From Elusimicrobiota bacterium (GTDB taxonomy: Bacteria; Elusimicrobiota; Elusimicrobia; F11), in NCBI GenBank assembly GCA_022072025.1, contig JAJVIP010000006.1:62001-126000 (forward strand): a stretch of 64,000 nt of DNA, given 5' to 3'. The notes below the pieces were generated by a model that saw only the letters and a program-made list of their open reading frames with translations, searched no databases and was not told the DNA's origin. The translations under genes and the position numbers were made by a program. Position 1 is the first letter of the stretch. Every line of letters begins with the position of its first letter. This document shows positions 16,185-20,837 of the stretch, one piece after another.

Positions 16185-17462
16185 ATGAATTCCTCGCCCA
16201 TTTCTCCTCGACAACGCGTGGCCCTTATTTTGGGGAGCGTGTCGTTGATTCTTTTAATCGCTCTTTTGCTTCCCAAAAAAGCGAAACATTTTTTTTCTCC
16301 AGCCCCCCCACCGGTGGTGATCACAACGGGCACCGTTCAATCGGGAGACGTGTTTGGTCTGCTCCTCACCCGTCACGGCAAATTAGATCCCAAATATGTG
16401 GCGCCGGTCCAAAAGGCTTTTCGGGAGCAATTCCGGCCGGAAAGCATTCAGCCCGGACATCATTTTGAAATCGTCACCTCCACCACCGGCATTTTCCAAA
16501 AACTCACCTACAAAATTGATCCCACCCAATCCTTTGTGGTCACGCGAAGCAGCGGAGACGTCTATCAATCGGAACAGGTCACGCAAAAAACCGTGTGGAT
16601 GGAAAAACGCATCAGCGTGGAGGTCACAAAATTTTTGGAATGGGACCTGCGCAATGCCGGCTATGAACCCACACTCATCGACAACCTGACCTATGAATTG
16701 GGAGAAAGTATTTTTGGCTGGCGCATTGACTTTTTTACCGAACAACGCAAAGGCGATCGGCTGGATGTTCTTTTAGAAGAGGAATATATCGTGGGAGAAG
16801 ACCACCCGATCAAAGGCGGTAAACACATGCGGGTCATTACCGCTTCTTACACAGGCTCTGGTACAAAAAATAAAGAGAACGTGGCCATTCGATTTCAATC
16901 CCATGACGCGAAACGCGCCGACTACTTCGATCCTGAAGGAAAAGCCATGCGCCGCGAATTTTTGCGGGCGCCTTTCACGAAAGGGGTGTTCCGAATTTCA
17001 TCGGGCTTCAACCCGCGCCGGCTTCATCCGATTTTGCGTGTGTACCGGCCCCATCACGGCACCGATTATGCCGCTTCTGTGGGAACCCCCGTGGCCGCCA
17101 TCGGAAAAGGAACGGTGGTTCGGGCTGAGTGGTACAAAGGGTATGGCAACTGCATTGATATTCGACACAACAACCGTTATGTCTCCCGTTACGGGCATCT
17201 CTCCAAAATTGCCGTTCGAAGAGGACAGGTGGTGGAACAAGGCCGCTACATAGGAAAAGTAGGGAACACTGGACTATCCACGGGACCTCATCTACACTTC
17301 GAAATGTTGGTTAACGGCGCGCAGCAGAATTTTTTACGCATGAATTTTCCGGCCTCTTCTTCGGTGGCCAAGTCGGATATGCCAGATTTCTACCGCGTTC
17401 GTGATGAAGCCTTGGCTCGCCTCGCCGCGAGGCCGGTTGATCAACCCAAAAAATTATCATGA
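16185..17462 (+). CDS. M23-family peptidoglycan endopeptidase (LytM/MepM-like)
   Basis: Predicted to cleave peptide cross-links of peptidoglycan in the periplasm. It has 425 residues with an N-terminal membrane anchor or signal (about residues 12-28). The C-terminal LytM domain carries HHGTDYAA (first zinc ligands), the RYGHLS strand and the final HLHFEM motif, so the H-x-H zinc site looks intact. The middle part (about 45-270) resembles the LysM/OapA-like region of MepM-type enzymes. It heads a forward gene run with the subtilase and PorV genes, which fits envelope maturation. Confidence 0.92.
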   Translation: MNSSPISPRQRVALILGSVSLILLIALLLPKKAKHFFSPAPPPVVITTGTVQSGDVFGLLLTRHGKLDPKYVAPVQKAFREQFRPESIQPGHHFEIVTSTTGIFQKLTYKIDPTQSFVVTRSSGDVYQSEQVTQKTVWMEKRISVEVTKFLEWDLRNAGYEPTLIDNLTYELGESIFGWRIDFFTEQRKGDRLDVLLEEEYIVGEDHPIKGGKHMRVITASYTGSGTKNKENVAIRFQSHDAKRADYFDPEGKAMRREFLRAPFTKGVFRISSGFNPRRLHPILRVYRPHHGTDYAASVGTPVAAIGKGTVVRAEWYKGYGNCIDIRHNNRYVSRYGHLSKIAVRRGQVVEQGRYIGKVGNTGLSTGPHLHFEMLVNGAQQNFLRMNFPASSSVAKSDMPDFYRVRDEALARLAARPVDQPKKLS

Positions 17463-17555
17463 ACGTGGAGAATTGGTGACCCAAAAAAACATTTTTCAAA
17501 ACTCGCGCTCGAAGATCATGACTTTCTGGGCTTGTTGCGAAAAGAGGCAAAGGCC

Positions 17556-17640
17556 GTCGTCCCGGCATGCCGTTTGGCCGGGATCCAGGTTTTCACAGAC
17601 GGTAAAACCTGGGCCCCGGCCAAAAGATTGCCGGGGCGAC
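17556..17640. repeat. 85-bp palindromic repeat element before the subtilase signal peptide
   Basis: The arms begin GTCGTCCCGGCA (17556) and end TGCCGGGGCGAC (17640), and both contain TTTGGCCGGG and CCAGGTTTT cores. Each arm is about 37-38 bp, with only a few mismatches and a short central loop. It looks like a REP/MITE-type dispersed palindrome. It is translated in frame if the subtilase starts upstream of it. Confidence 0.75.
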
Positions 17641-17646
17641 AGCGTC

Positions 17647-19299
17647 TTGTGCAGGTCCTTTAGGTACGCTTCAACTGAATATATCCGGCTAATCCAGGCA
17701 TTTGTTTTAATTTTCATCCTCAGTTCCCCCCCGCTTCTCGCCGCCTCTGCTCTTCAGAGCTACGAATCCGAAACCGGGCAGAAACAAATGGTTCTTCCGC
17801 AAGTCCTGGTCAAATACAAATCTGGCAAAAACAACCAAGTTCGCAACGCTCTGGGTCGAATGGGCGCCATTCACCAGCGAGAATTAGCGAACATCGGCGT
17901 GGATGTGTTGAATGTCCCCCCTGGGCAATCCGTTCAATCCTTTGTGGCCCAACTCAAAAAAAATGACGACATCGAATTTGTCGAACCCAATGGCGTGTTG
18001 CGCGCGCTTTACACTCCCAACGATCCCAGTTTTTCTTCACAGTATTTCATGACCTCCTCCTATTCCAATATCACCGGCGCCTGGGACGTGGCCGGAACCA
18101 CCGGCGCCGCCAGTGTGGTGGTGGCGGTCATTGACACTGGGATCACTCCCACCCACTCCGACTTAAGCAATCAACTCTGGTCCAATCCGAGTCCCTCTGG
18201 TAATTCAGGCGCCTATGGAACACAAATAGGAATTGATTGGAATGGTGACGGAGATTTTGTTGATACCGACCCAAGTTTGGGTCCTGAACAAGATTACAGC
18301 GCCACCCCCATTGACAACAACACCGGGGAATATCACGGGACGCGCGTGGCGGGGATAATTGCGGCCCAAATCAATAATGGAGTCAATATTTCCGGGGTAG
18401 CACCCGGGTGCAAAATCATGACAGTCAAAGCGCTCACCTCCGCCGGGGCGGGAGATTATGCGGCGATCGCCGCTGGTATTACCTACGCCGTCACCAATGG
18501 CGCTTCTGTGATTAATTTGAGTTTGGGGGGCGAGTCCAGCTCACAAACAGTTTTAGACGCCGTGAACAATGCCATCGCGAACAATGTGGTGGTGGTGGCC
18601 GCTGCGGGCAACGATGGCAACGGGTCCCCCGTCAACTTTCCCGCCTCCATCGCTTCGGTGATTGCGGTGGGCGCAACGGACGCATCGAACAATTTGGCCT
18701 CTTTCTCTTGCACGGGCCCCTCGGTTGATCTGGTGGCTCCTGGCGTGGGGATTATTTCCACCATCGCCCCCAACACGATCAGTTCTCCTAACGACGCCAC
18801 CGGCAATGATGGCACTTCCTTTTCAGCGCCCATTGTGGCGGGTGTGGCGGCCCTCATGCGATCTCTGGGATCGCCGACTCTGTCGGTTGAACAAATCACC
18901 ACCTATTTAACCCTCACTGCCAACGACCGCGGATTGGGAACCAACAATTCTTATGGCCATGGTCTATTGAACGCTTCCTTGGCGATCCAATCTGCCATGG
19001 CCGGCACTGTTTTATCGGCCAAAGCGGCTGGCGGAGAAACCAATCTTTATCCGAATCCTTTTAACCCACTCACCACGGCCAACGCTCATTTCGCGTTGCC
19101 TTCAGGTGTGGATGAAGCGGGAGTGGAAATCAAGATTTTTAATGTGGTGGGAGAGGAAGTGCAAACCCTTCGGGGCGCTCAATACAAATCATGGGATGGC
19201 AAAAACGAGGATGGGTCTCTGCTGGCCCCGGGAATTTACTTTTACCGGGCCCAAACCTCTGTCGGGGATCTGAAAGGAAAGTTCACCATAAAACAATGA
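17647..19299 (+). CDS. Subtilisin-like serine protease (S8) with FlgD-like C-terminal domain
   Basis: This is a secreted protease with an intact triad: Asp in AVIDTG (near 18134), His in HGTRVAG (near 18335) and Ser in GTSFSAP (near 18812). A propeptide (VLVKYKSG to FVEPNG) precedes the catalytic domain. The C-terminus starts NLYPNPFNP and contains IFNVVGEEV and APGIYFY, typical of FlgD-Ig-like or sorting-type tails in Elusimicrobia and FCB bacteria. The start is uncertain: the signal peptide (LIQAFVLIFILSS) follows a palindromic repeat, so TTG 17647 gives a normal signal peptide, while ATG 17518 or ATG 17401 would read the repeat as protein. No Shine-Dalgarno decides it. Confidence 0.9.
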   Translation: MCRSFRYASTEYIRLIQAFVLIFILSSPPLLAASALQSYESETGQKQMVLPQVLVKYKSGKNNQVRNALGRMGAIHQRELANIGVDVLNVPPGQSVQSFVAQLKKNDDIEFVEPNGVLRALYTPNDPSFSSQYFMTSSYSNITGAWDVAGTTGAASVVVAVIDTGITPTHSDLSNQLWSNPSPSGNSGAYGTQIGIDWNGDGDFVDTDPSLGPEQDYSATPIDNNTGEYHGTRVAGIIAAQINNGVNISGVAPGCKIMTVKALTSAGAGDYAAIAAGITYAVTNGASVINLSLGGESSSQTVLDAVNNAIANNVVVVAAAGNDGNGSPVNFPASIASVIAVGATDASNNLASFSCTGPSVDLVAPGVGIISTIAPNTISSPNDATGNDGTSFSAPIVAGVAALMRSLGSPTLSVEQITTYLTLTANDRGLGTNNSYGHGLLNASLAIQSAMAGTVLSAKAAGGETNLYPNPFNPLTTANAHFALPSGVDEAGVEIKIFNVVGEEVQTLRGAQYKSWDGKNEDGSLLAPGIYFYRAQTSVGDLKGKFTIKQ

Positions 19300-20837
19300 C
19301 ACCCCAAATGAATGACGATACCTTCAACCGCAGAATTCGGGTTAAAAACTTGATTCCCGCTTTCGCGGGAATGACGATGTTATTAACTGCAGGATTCGGG
19401 CTAGCTCTCCTTATAATAGGAGGACCTATTCCCCTCCATGCGGAAACGTCCAAAGGGGCTGGGTCAAGTTTGTTTCCTTTCTTAAAAATTCCCATCAGCG
19501 CGCGTGCCGTGGCGCTGGGCGGCACGTTGGGCGCCACCGATGGGGACGCGGGAGGAATCGACACCCACATGGCAGGCTTGGCCAGTCTGGAGAGAATCGA
19601 TCTACAAGCCAGCTTTATCAATCATTTTGAGGATTCGTCGCTACAAGCCATTACAGCGGGATTCCCCATCAAATCCAAAGGAAAACCAGGGATTCCATTG
19701 GAACGTATGGAAGGAGCGGAATTTCCTCGGGATCAATGGGTCATCGGAGTTGAATACCGCTCCTTTAAAGTGAGTGATGACGCTTTTGATGAAAACAACC
19801 ATCCCCTGGACGAATTTGATGTAAAAGACCAAATGATTGCGGTGGGTTTGGCCTATCCTATCTCAAGAAAAATCAGTGTGGGACTGACGGGGAAAACTCT
19901 CAATAGCAAGATCCAAGGAAAATCCACCAGCGCGTCCGCCATCGACGCGGGATTCATCAACAAAATCAACAGCCGTCTCAATTTTGGTTTGGCGTTTCAA
20001 AATTTAGGTTTCCAAAAAAAATTCTCGGGGAGTTTGAGCAACAGCGAATATTCGTTGCCCGGGACCGCGCGGGGCAGTCTTTCTTACCGGTTTAATCCCT
20101 GGGTTCTGGCCCTGGTGGACGTGGCCGCCGCGCAAGACGAAGTGATCCGAAAATCTGGCGGCGTTGAATGGTCTTTGGGAAAATCATTCCATGTGAGAGG
20201 GGGGGTTCTCCACCACACCTCTCTTGAGTTCTCAGGGGGTGTGGGCCTTGATATCAATGGACCTCAAAAATCGTTACCTCCTTCCACCAAGTCTGAGAGC
20301 TCTCTCTCAGGAAAAAAACCGGCCTCCAATCTCTCTCCCATGGCGGTTCAGATTTTAGGACGGTTGTCTGACAAAATGATTCAAGCCTATCTTCCGACCA
20401 AACTTGGAGTTGAGAAACCCACCTTGGCGGTCTTGCCCTTTCACTCCTCAGAACAAGCTTCGGTTTCGATTCATAAAAAAATTCATGAGGCCTTGTCTCA
20501 ATCCAATGAATTTAAAACGATTGATTCAAAAAATGAAACGGCTTTTATTATCAGCGGGAAGGTCAACTTATCGAACGATACCTATATCATCAACACCCGC
20601 TTGATTCGAATGGAGGACGGGGAAACCATCGCTGTGGAACGCGCTGAAATTGCGCAAGAAGACCTCTTTGAAGAAGTTTCATCCGCTCAAAAAAAGCCCA
20701 CCTTGGGGAAAATATCTTACGAGAATTCATCTTCAAACAACTCCTTTACGCGGGTCAACATCAGTCTTGACTATGGCTTGACCACTCACCAAGAATTGGG
20801 ACTCACCCACACCCTCACGCTGAAAATTCTTTACTAG
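19296..20837 (+). CDS. PorV/UPF0164-type outer-membrane barrel protein with FlgO/CsgG-like domain
   Basis: The start overlaps the subtilase stop (ATGA at 19296), suggesting translational coupling. A long n-region with RRIRVK is followed by a hydrophobic signal segment ending LHAETSKG. Residues of about 60-340 have the GTSARAVALGG-like start (here SARAVALGGTLGATDGDAGG) and amphipathic strands of PorV/UPF0164 barrels. After a Ser/Lys-rich linker, PTLAVLPF onwards (about 395-490) resembles the FlgO/CsgG-type lipoprotein domain, and the protein ends with barrel-like strands and a C-terminal aromatic residue. Part of the signal region is encoded by a GC palindrome (19353-19372), so ATG 19371 or 19377 are alternative starts. 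Likely role: outer-membrane export or surface attachment with the adjacent protease. Confidence 0.75.
   Translation: MTPQMNDDTFNRRIRVKNLIPAFAGMTMLLTAGFGLALLIIGGPIPLHAETSKGAGSSLFPFLKIPISARAVALGGTLGATDGDAGGIDTHMAGLASLERIDLQASFINHFEDSSLQAITAGFPIKSKGKPGIPLERMEGAEFPRDQWVIGVEYRSFKVSDDAFDENNHPLDEFDVKDQMIAVGLAYPISRKISVGLTGKTLNSKIQGKSTSASAIDAGFINKINSRLNFGLAFQNLGFQKKFSGSLSNSEYSLPGTARGSLSYRFNPWVLALVDVAAAQDEVIRKSGGVEWSLGKSFHVRGGVLHHTSLEFSGGVGLDINGPQKSLPPSTKSESSLSGKKPASNLSPMAVQILGRLSDKMIQAYLPTKLGVEKPTLAVLPFHSSEQASVSIHKKIHEALSQSNEFKTIDSKNETAFIISGKVNLSNDTYIINTRLIRMEDGETIAVERAEIAQEDLFEEVSSAQKKPTLGKISYENSSSNNSFTRVNISLDYGLTTHQELGLTHTLTLKILY
19353..19372. repeat. 20-bp dRS3-like palindrome inside the PorV signal region
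   Basis: The core is ATTCCCGCTTTCGCGGGAAT, a perfect 8-bp inverted repeat with a 4-base loop. It matches the ATTCCC-N8-GGGAAT pattern of dispersed repeats known from Neisseria and many environmental genomes. It is translated as IPAFAGM in the reading frame of the PorV-like gene. Confidence 0.8.

Follow-up and report, generated by a model that had tools for sequence, protein, structure and literature searches.

We analysed a 64,000-nucleotide window of an Elusimicrobiota bacterium genome (GenBank assembly GCA_022072025.1, contig JAJVIP010000006.1, positions 62,001 to 126,000 of the forward strand), in which the genes for an M23 peptidase, a subtilase with a sorting domain of the type IX secretion system (T9SS) type and a PorV/PorQ-like protein follow one another (Table 1). 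Palindromic repeats lie at the 5' ends of the latter two: an 85-bp palindrome of a family designated A at the subtilase gene, and a shorter repeat, B, at the gene for the PorV-like protein. A first-pass annotation had described the palindrome as lying at the subtilase frame and repeat B as a dRS3-like sequence in the PorV signal region. Both descriptions were borne out, the palindrome being inside an open frame with a probable start codon upstream, and repeat B in an open frame that runs on into the PorV-like gene. We propose, with a probability of about 0.77, that A and B belong to a numerous group of non-autonomous CGTC-type palindromes, of the repetitive extragenic palindrome (REP) or miniature inverted-repeat transposable element (MITE) type, and that both inserted in frame into signal-peptide n-regions, where they are most likely translated and disposable.

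The subtilase, whose C-terminal sorting domain is recognised by TIGR04183 (25.3 bits, above the cut-off of 23), has its probable start at TTG 17473 or GTG 17476, with a GGAG at 17467, and the palindrome lies downstream. The core palindrome has arms of 21 nt (17573-17593 and 17604-17624) that are 90% complementary. The possibility that the repeat consists of this 85-bp palindrome alone was rejected, since the arms of other copies extend it; the 85-mer is the core of an element that spans about 17533-17694 in the window, whose left arm resembles by eye the arm family GAGACTGTTGCGAAAGTAAGCTTTAAGCC and is a singleton in the arm grouping. No in-frame ATG, GTG or TTG occurs between element A and the hydrophobic core of the signal peptide. 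The in-frame starts close to the signal peptide are a TTG at +6 within the right arm and then an ATG at +147, past the signal peptide. Element A would thus sit in frame between an old start (TTG 17473 or GTG 17476) and the hydrophobic core; it would be translated, with about 54 extra n-region residues, and these would be cut off along with the signal peptide.

At the PorV-like gene, the sequence TTCCCGCTTTCGCGGGAATGACG has one site in the window (19354-19376, at most 3 mismatches), while none was found in 100 shuffles. Here the smaller REP and pieces of a related element would form most of the n-region and part of the h-region (MNDDTFNRRIRVKNLIPAFAGMTMLLTAGFGLALLIIGG...). Similar type-1-like ends border B cores in two further stretches (L035 and L036, by eye).

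Table 1. Features of the locus in the window, and copies of families C and D elsewhere in the genome
Feature	Position	Strand	Basis or remark
M23 peptidase gene	16185..17462	+	Open reading frame (ORF); PF01551, E 1.6e-34; stop codon is the operon junction where the subtilase starts
Subtilase with C-terminal T9SS-type sorting domain	17473..19299	+	ORF; PF00082, E 1.3e-55
Element A, left arm, diverged	17533..17555	+	BLAST matches of several other copies reach 17533
Element A, 85-bp core palindrome, CGTC-type	17556..17640	.	Inside the open frame of the subtilase
Element A, right arm, type-1	17641..17694	+	Ends in TTCAACTGAATATATCCGGCTAA, like a terminal inverted repeat; holds in-frame TTG 17647
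Subtilase signal-peptide hydrophobic core and cleavage region (QAFVLIFILSSPPLLAAS)	17695..17750	+	
PorV/PorQ-family protein	19308..20837	+	ORF; NF033709, 74.7 bits, below the cut-off of 90
Element remnant like a type-1 right end (CTTCAACCGCAGAATTCGGGTTA)	19310..19344	+	Direct repeat of 19369-19403 (77% identity, 35 nt); arms compared by eye
Repeat B core, dRS3 / CGTC-1-like REP	19354..19371	.	Reads IPAFAG(M) within the PorV signal peptide
Second type-1-like right end (TTAACTGCAGGATTCGGGCTA)	19369..19403	+	Joined to repeat B
Family C copies	L190-L211		Contigs C1, C2, C5, C7, C9, C11, C15, C17, C18, C20, C22, C27 of the source genome
Family D copies	L076:8091, L093:3910, L097 (rc) 3873, L102 (rc) 3918, L116:7350, L118:6394, L119:3931, L123:1278		

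Families A and B in the source genome

The source genome, G000, comprises 3.64 Mb in 43 contigs, the window among them. In addition to the window we read 55 fetched stretches, together about 649 kb or 18% of the genome; this sample is biased, since the stretches were picked around repeat matches and transposase genes. Stretches are given L numbers and other genomes G numbers, and arm-family and flank comparisons were made by eye where this is stated. A half-site pattern of A (at most 2 mismatches) has 178 matches genome-wide (88 forward, 90 reverse), compared with 16 for the reversed-pattern control, while a BLAST search with the 85-mer pointed to about 40 distinct places among the best 40 of 104 candidates (57 matches, many of them both strands of one place). 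The sequence read holds 91 non-overlapping copies or sub-copies. Among 164 core ends, 122 fall into 11 linked arm groups of at least two members and 42 are single, the largest group (83 ends) mixing several arm types. Type-1 copies have the terminal inverted repeats TTAACC(C/G)GAAT.ATTCAGTTGAA at both ends, the window copy at its right end only; the other copies bear different arms, and the ends of A copies are frequently TTAA or TA. Several A cores contain nested palindromic inserts (GTACCG...CGGTAC; L111:10124-10299, L115:6388-6591, L098:4004-4105), which suggests layered insertions.

Of the two repeat families named in the first-pass annotation, B turned out to be low-copy, and the notion that both are equally common was dropped. 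Repeat B has 11 sites genome-wide (7 exact, 4 with one mismatch) against 4 in the control, so that the list is not wholly real. Very long ORFs contain two of these sites (L039, L040), and another is found where an ORF ends (L042, 3' end); three are at N-termini (L034, which is PorV, L043 and L044), while five have no such frame. The TolC-like L044, reading IPALAG, was not retained as a certain REP: it differs by one mismatch, is without the CGTC context and may have arisen by chance.

The phenomenon is broader than first described, as it includes in-frame insertions in the middle of genes and the putative start-codon cassettes treated below. A family-A element of about 67 residues interrupts CoaB in frame (L086:3947-4148), where residues 2-135 and 219-281 of the query align with residues 6-142 and 142-207 of PDB 1u7u. 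Likewise, a different CGTC-type palindrome interrupts KdpB in frame by about 31 residues (L113:7740-7832), residues 2-111 and 146-715 aligning with 2-111 and 120-682 of PDB 6hra. In-frame coding signal on both sides of an A element was also seen in the N-terminal part of a uracil-DNA glycosylase-like gene, in a 527-codon ORF (L079), in the very long ORFs of L101 and L107, and in L088 and L117. At L088:13710-13943, the element links the ORF of an RND efflux pump, in frame, with the gene that follows; in that gene no start can be recognised ahead of the signal-peptide-like segment.

Orthologous loci and the position of the start codons

In order to compare the locus between genera, we used G002 (same family, another genus), G001 (a third genus) and G007 (another family of the class). 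For the G002 subtilase, a TTG that overlaps the M23 stop can serve as the start; translation from it gives MKITRLTVSLLFIATVFSPLA, and there is no palindrome. In G001 the equivalent TTG lies in GGAGAATTG, a sequence which the G000 subtilase shares (17467-17475 of the window), and the frame then crosses an inverted repeat (32-nt arms, 94% complementary) into TLLALILILVPPSLALA; this palindrome occupies the same spot as element A and has a different sequence. The upstream TTG is therefore found at an equivalent position in three genera, and for this reason we prefer it as the subtilase start. For PorV in G001, the ATG overlaps the subtilase stop and the frame crosses shorter palindromes (8- and 11-nt stems) into the signal peptide. 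Read in this way, the G000 and G001 loci have in-frame n-region palindromes in both genes, in two genera and from different repeats. The comparison to in-frame insertions in Rickettsia, here at signal peptides, made in the first-pass annotation is supported by the upstream TTG, by the G002 subtilase without a palindrome and by G001 with another one; the orthologue lacking a repeat to which that annotation had looked was thus found for the subtilase in G002, and in G001 both genes bear palindromes of their own. A single ORF covering subtilase and PorV in G002 was not used as a fusion, the translation crossing an unknown residue (X). No relatives were confirmed when the PorV-like protein served as query in a search of genome contigs.

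REPs close to B are present in these relatives as well. A pattern close to that of B has 232 matches in G001, and in G007, where 43 of 44 sites were read, an AFAGMT frame with downstream coding signal occurs at 5. Three of the 43 (L308, L313, L320; translations by eye) enter the N-termini of efflux-like, PorV-like and lipoprotein-like genes; L293 and L295 have coding signal downstream of AFAGMT, and an N-terminal fusion is not plain there.

Several points weigh against in-frame insertion into translated n-regions, among them the starts available within the repeats. The repeats could be non-coding 5' regulatory elements, with translation starting inside them or at their edge and the palindrome forming an mRNA hairpin that acts in stability, as an RNase III site or in attenuation. 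Indeed, TTG 17647 is in frame within the right arm of element A, which would make the repeat a 5' untranslated region plus start codon, and repeat B ends in GGGAATGACG and places an ATG in frame. The part of a 2013 survey of GTAG/CGTC REPs available to us argues that the REPs at the N-termini of annotated ORFs may in many cases be extragenic (PMC3733652). We consider this explanation unlikely. The equivalent upstream TTG of the three genera speaks against it, as does PorV of G001, which has no start between the palindromes and the hydrophobic core except a GTG inside the repeat region. Moreover, neither internal start has a clear Shine-Dalgarno motif (by eye), and the product MTMLLTAG... would have no positive charge ahead of its hydrophobic core. 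As to the earlier suggestion that the repeat supplies ATG 19371 of PorV, this codon is in frame, and a start there or at 19377 is possible. The start we favour is the ATG at 19308, because it lies close behind the subtilase stop (8 nt), because it gives a positively charged n-region (RRIRVK) and because the ATG of the G001 orthologue overlaps the subtilase stop.

Also to be set against insertion in frame, no target-site duplication and no within-species empty site was found, a same-genus genome being absent among the listed relatives. In favour of such insertion, fully open frames number 95 (92 with the other edge convention) in the 72 paired A elements (mean 186 bp), compared with 57.4 +- 5.6 (maximum 76) in 100 dinucleotide shuffles. 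Against it, the shuffling destroys the palindromy by which frames on both strands are coupled, and 22 of the 72 elements have no fully open frame, the other 50 having at least one. Signal-peptide-like N-termini, by a crude hydropathy rule, occur in 11 of 13 hand-collected genes, which either must start inside an A or B repeat or ahead of it, or have a signal peptide formed in part by the repeat; among called genes that start farther than 200 bp from any A element, the figure is 82 of 288. The hand-collected set was not blind, and one member, L044, may be no repeat. Among called genes starting within 200 bp of an A element, 11 of 46 are signal-peptide-like, which is no excess. There is therefore no general preference for secreted-protein genes, and the pattern concerns which N-terminal fusions are seen.

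That A and B are ordinary intergenic REPs whose frames are open by chance, with the real starts further inside the genes, is very improbable: GC-rich palindromes do have few stops, and shuffling alone would leave about 57 open frames in 72 elements, but the subtilase offers no start from the element to the signal-peptide core, and in CoaB and KdpB the in-frame insertion lies within conserved domains. In-frame insertion into n-regions remains our preferred reading. From the sequences we infer an upstream translation start and extended signal peptides that work, the insertions surviving because the region is cut off. CGTC-type elements would often be 'translationally transparent', offering ribosomes at least one frame without a stop, and the simplest account of the N-terminal fusions would be that a cleaved n-region tolerates insertions. 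Selfish palindromes may in this way repeatedly become parts of signal peptides. Besides, the annotation of start sites in REP-rich genomes should be treated with caution, as it is unreliable.

Families C and D at start codons

During the alignment of arms we found two further, related families, C and D, which end in ...TTGCGGCGGAGCTGCGCTATG. Family C has 22 copies genome-wide (interior pattern, at most 3 mismatches) and none in the control. The distance from a left start codon (ATG in 21, GTG in one) to a right ATG is exactly 266 bp in all 22, and the copies deviate from their consensus by 6.0% on average (3.3-11.2%). The leader frame beginning at the left start is open through the element in 20 copies, the other two stopping at -11. 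In 17 of the 22, the leader TGA overlaps the right ATG; four of the other five leaders have stops at -11, -11, +7 and +10, and one stays open, both -11 stops belonging to copies whose gene lacks an A after the ATG. In 21 copies the frame opened by the right ATG has 100 codons or more and shows coding signal, against 18% of 2548 TATG sites; in the exception, L210, it has 21 codons. The gene's own frame has a stop 4-20 codons upstream of the right ATG and is therefore closed to entry from further upstream.

Family D, counted only in the stretches read, has an A-type core and the right end of C (11 left ends, 8 of them with a right end). A gene begins at six of the eight right ends, a C leader follows in tandem at another, and at L097 the frame extends for only 22 codons. 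Lengths from left to right are 191, 194 or 257, all 2 modulo 3; the three 191-bp copies have an ATG 3 nt further upstream, and nested 63-bp inserts preserve the frame. In ten genes tested after C (six) or D (four) ends, namely transaldolase, release factor 3, UbiX, two ABC ATPases, phytoene desaturase, PurE, HisD, dihydroorotase and HypC (the last four being among those behind D), NCBIfam matches begin within the first 1-12 residues, and judged by these matches the genes start near their natural N-terminus.

On the left side, the stop of the upstream gene is a TGA overlapping the start of C in 6 of 22 copies, lies at -9 to -16 in 7 and at -34 to -221 in 5, and none was found in 4 of the 22. 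A T directly precedes the left start in 20 of 22 copies, compared with 56 of 228 called genes. C copies usually bear a GGAG motif, and Shine-Dalgarno-type matches of at least 4 nt stand before the right ATG in 16 of 22 and before the left start in 7 of 22, against 20% of 2926 TATG sites. The bases at the two ends differ in three copies (L197, L205, L206), so the element itself may contribute the right ATG, as happens in single-strand transposition beside a fixed target, or only TA or ATG may be duplicated.

The substitutions among C copies bear on what is kept. Stop-creating changes are scarce (3 versus 15.3 +- 3.7 expected; counted once each, 2 versus 7.7 +- 2.3). The leader was rejected as a strongly conserved protein, with 232 nonsynonymous changes against 243.5 expected; synonymous changes exceed expectation (115 versus 92.1 +- 7.9; 10 of 2000 simulations), an excess that is weaker if each change is counted once (49 versus 42.2; 182 of 2000), so that amino-acid conservation is at most weak. 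The RNA of C folds as one long hairpin (z -7.8), and the antisense frame, open in 18 of 22 copies, merely follows from the palindromic sequence. In 234 further genomes of the class, the matches listed (best three candidates per genome) included no full-length C, the closest being a 24-nt match in G218, and a search of genome contigs with the C leader as query confirmed no relatives.

We lean towards viewing C and D as start-codon cassettes, that is, mobile elements that would insert exactly into start codons, most visibly at operon junctions. The host initiation site would then serve the element's own leader ORF, and translation would be passed on through the carried Shine-Dalgarno motif and a terminal ATG overlapping the leader stop (ATGA). 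Such coupling is plausible because it needs an open frame running up to the next ATG, and this is chiefly what has been kept. It weighs against the cassettes that the left start of C is not clearly marked by a Shine-Dalgarno motif. Insertion may target start codons or merely survive there; as a plausible gene follows the right end in all but one of the 22 C copies (L210), targeting or else very strong selection is favoured. With somewhat better than even prospects, mobile DNA would then find shelter at gene starts, protected by translational coupling. The genome thus holds, besides A and B, repeat families organised around the start codon in position, frame and ends. If the cassettes are real, they would let mobile DNA reside in operons without silencing downstream genes, and leader ORFs would have one natural origin in them.

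No mobilising enzyme was found for C and D. Three Y1_Tnp matches exist in G000, and their flanks of 450-500 bases show no A-D ends (by eye); a Y1 transposase visibly bearing such ends was consequently rejected for all three. L087 (G000:C15:68515 and 76438) contains a pair of almost identical Y1/RAYT-like transposase genes separated by 8 kb, one with a perfect 27-bp terminal inverted repeat (GGTGCCGCAGTTGTCATTTGGCATTTG) and the other with mismatches in its left end; these ends match none of the families A-D. In the open-licence literature searched, we recognised no description of elements inserting at start codons.

Comparison with known systems

In-frame palindromes, N-termini included, are already in print (PMC3733652, PMC2229807, as far as their available sections go): palindromes within proteins in Rickettsia (PMC10969869, PMC2229807), intragenic CGTC REPs, some at NH2 ends, from many species (PMC3733652), and a MITE that forms part of a signal peptide in Yersinia YPO1552 (PMC2229807). 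Rickettsia palindromic elements (RPE; Ogata et al. 2000, 2002) are described as palindromes of about 100-150 bp, in conserved genes as well as intergenic, in families that can be read as peptides, and the same applies here; CoaB, KdpB and the subtilase orthologues all exhibit in-frame insertion into conserved genes. We claim a likeness in mode of action, not membership of the RPE. Signal-peptide n-region sites in orthologues of two genera, together with C and D at start codons, go beyond what the available portions of PMC10969869 and PMC2229807 report for RPE.

Similar in build are the CGTC-tagged REPs, which include Neisseria dRS3 (CGTC-1) and RPE-4 and RPE-6 of R. conorii (PMC3733652, in part). 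These share an outer CGTC, a short GC-rich palindrome, dimers and in-frame intragenic copies including those at NH2 ends. In G000, CGTC stands at the stem end and A has many copies: the tag is seen at the right end of B (GGGAATGACG; other strand CGTCATTCCC) and at the left end of A (CCGTCGTCCCGGC), while the right end of the window copy of A reads TGTCGCCCC, so that it carries the tag at one end only. Unlike the REPs in the consulted part of that survey, the REP core here lies within larger units with arms like terminal inverted repeats and nested inserts, and recurs inside signal peptides in several genera.

The MITE fusion of Yersinia YPO1552 likewise has a mobile palindrome giving part of a signal peptide; it is one locus in the excerpt at hand (PMC2229807), whereas here two adjoining genes and their orthologues in another genus are concerned. 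Finally, stop-start overlap of the ATGA kind (PMC6728339, in its available part) is matched by the leader stops lying over the next ATG in C; in contrast to that system, the upstream ORF here is a repeated element of mobile type, which would be coupled to the gene behind it.

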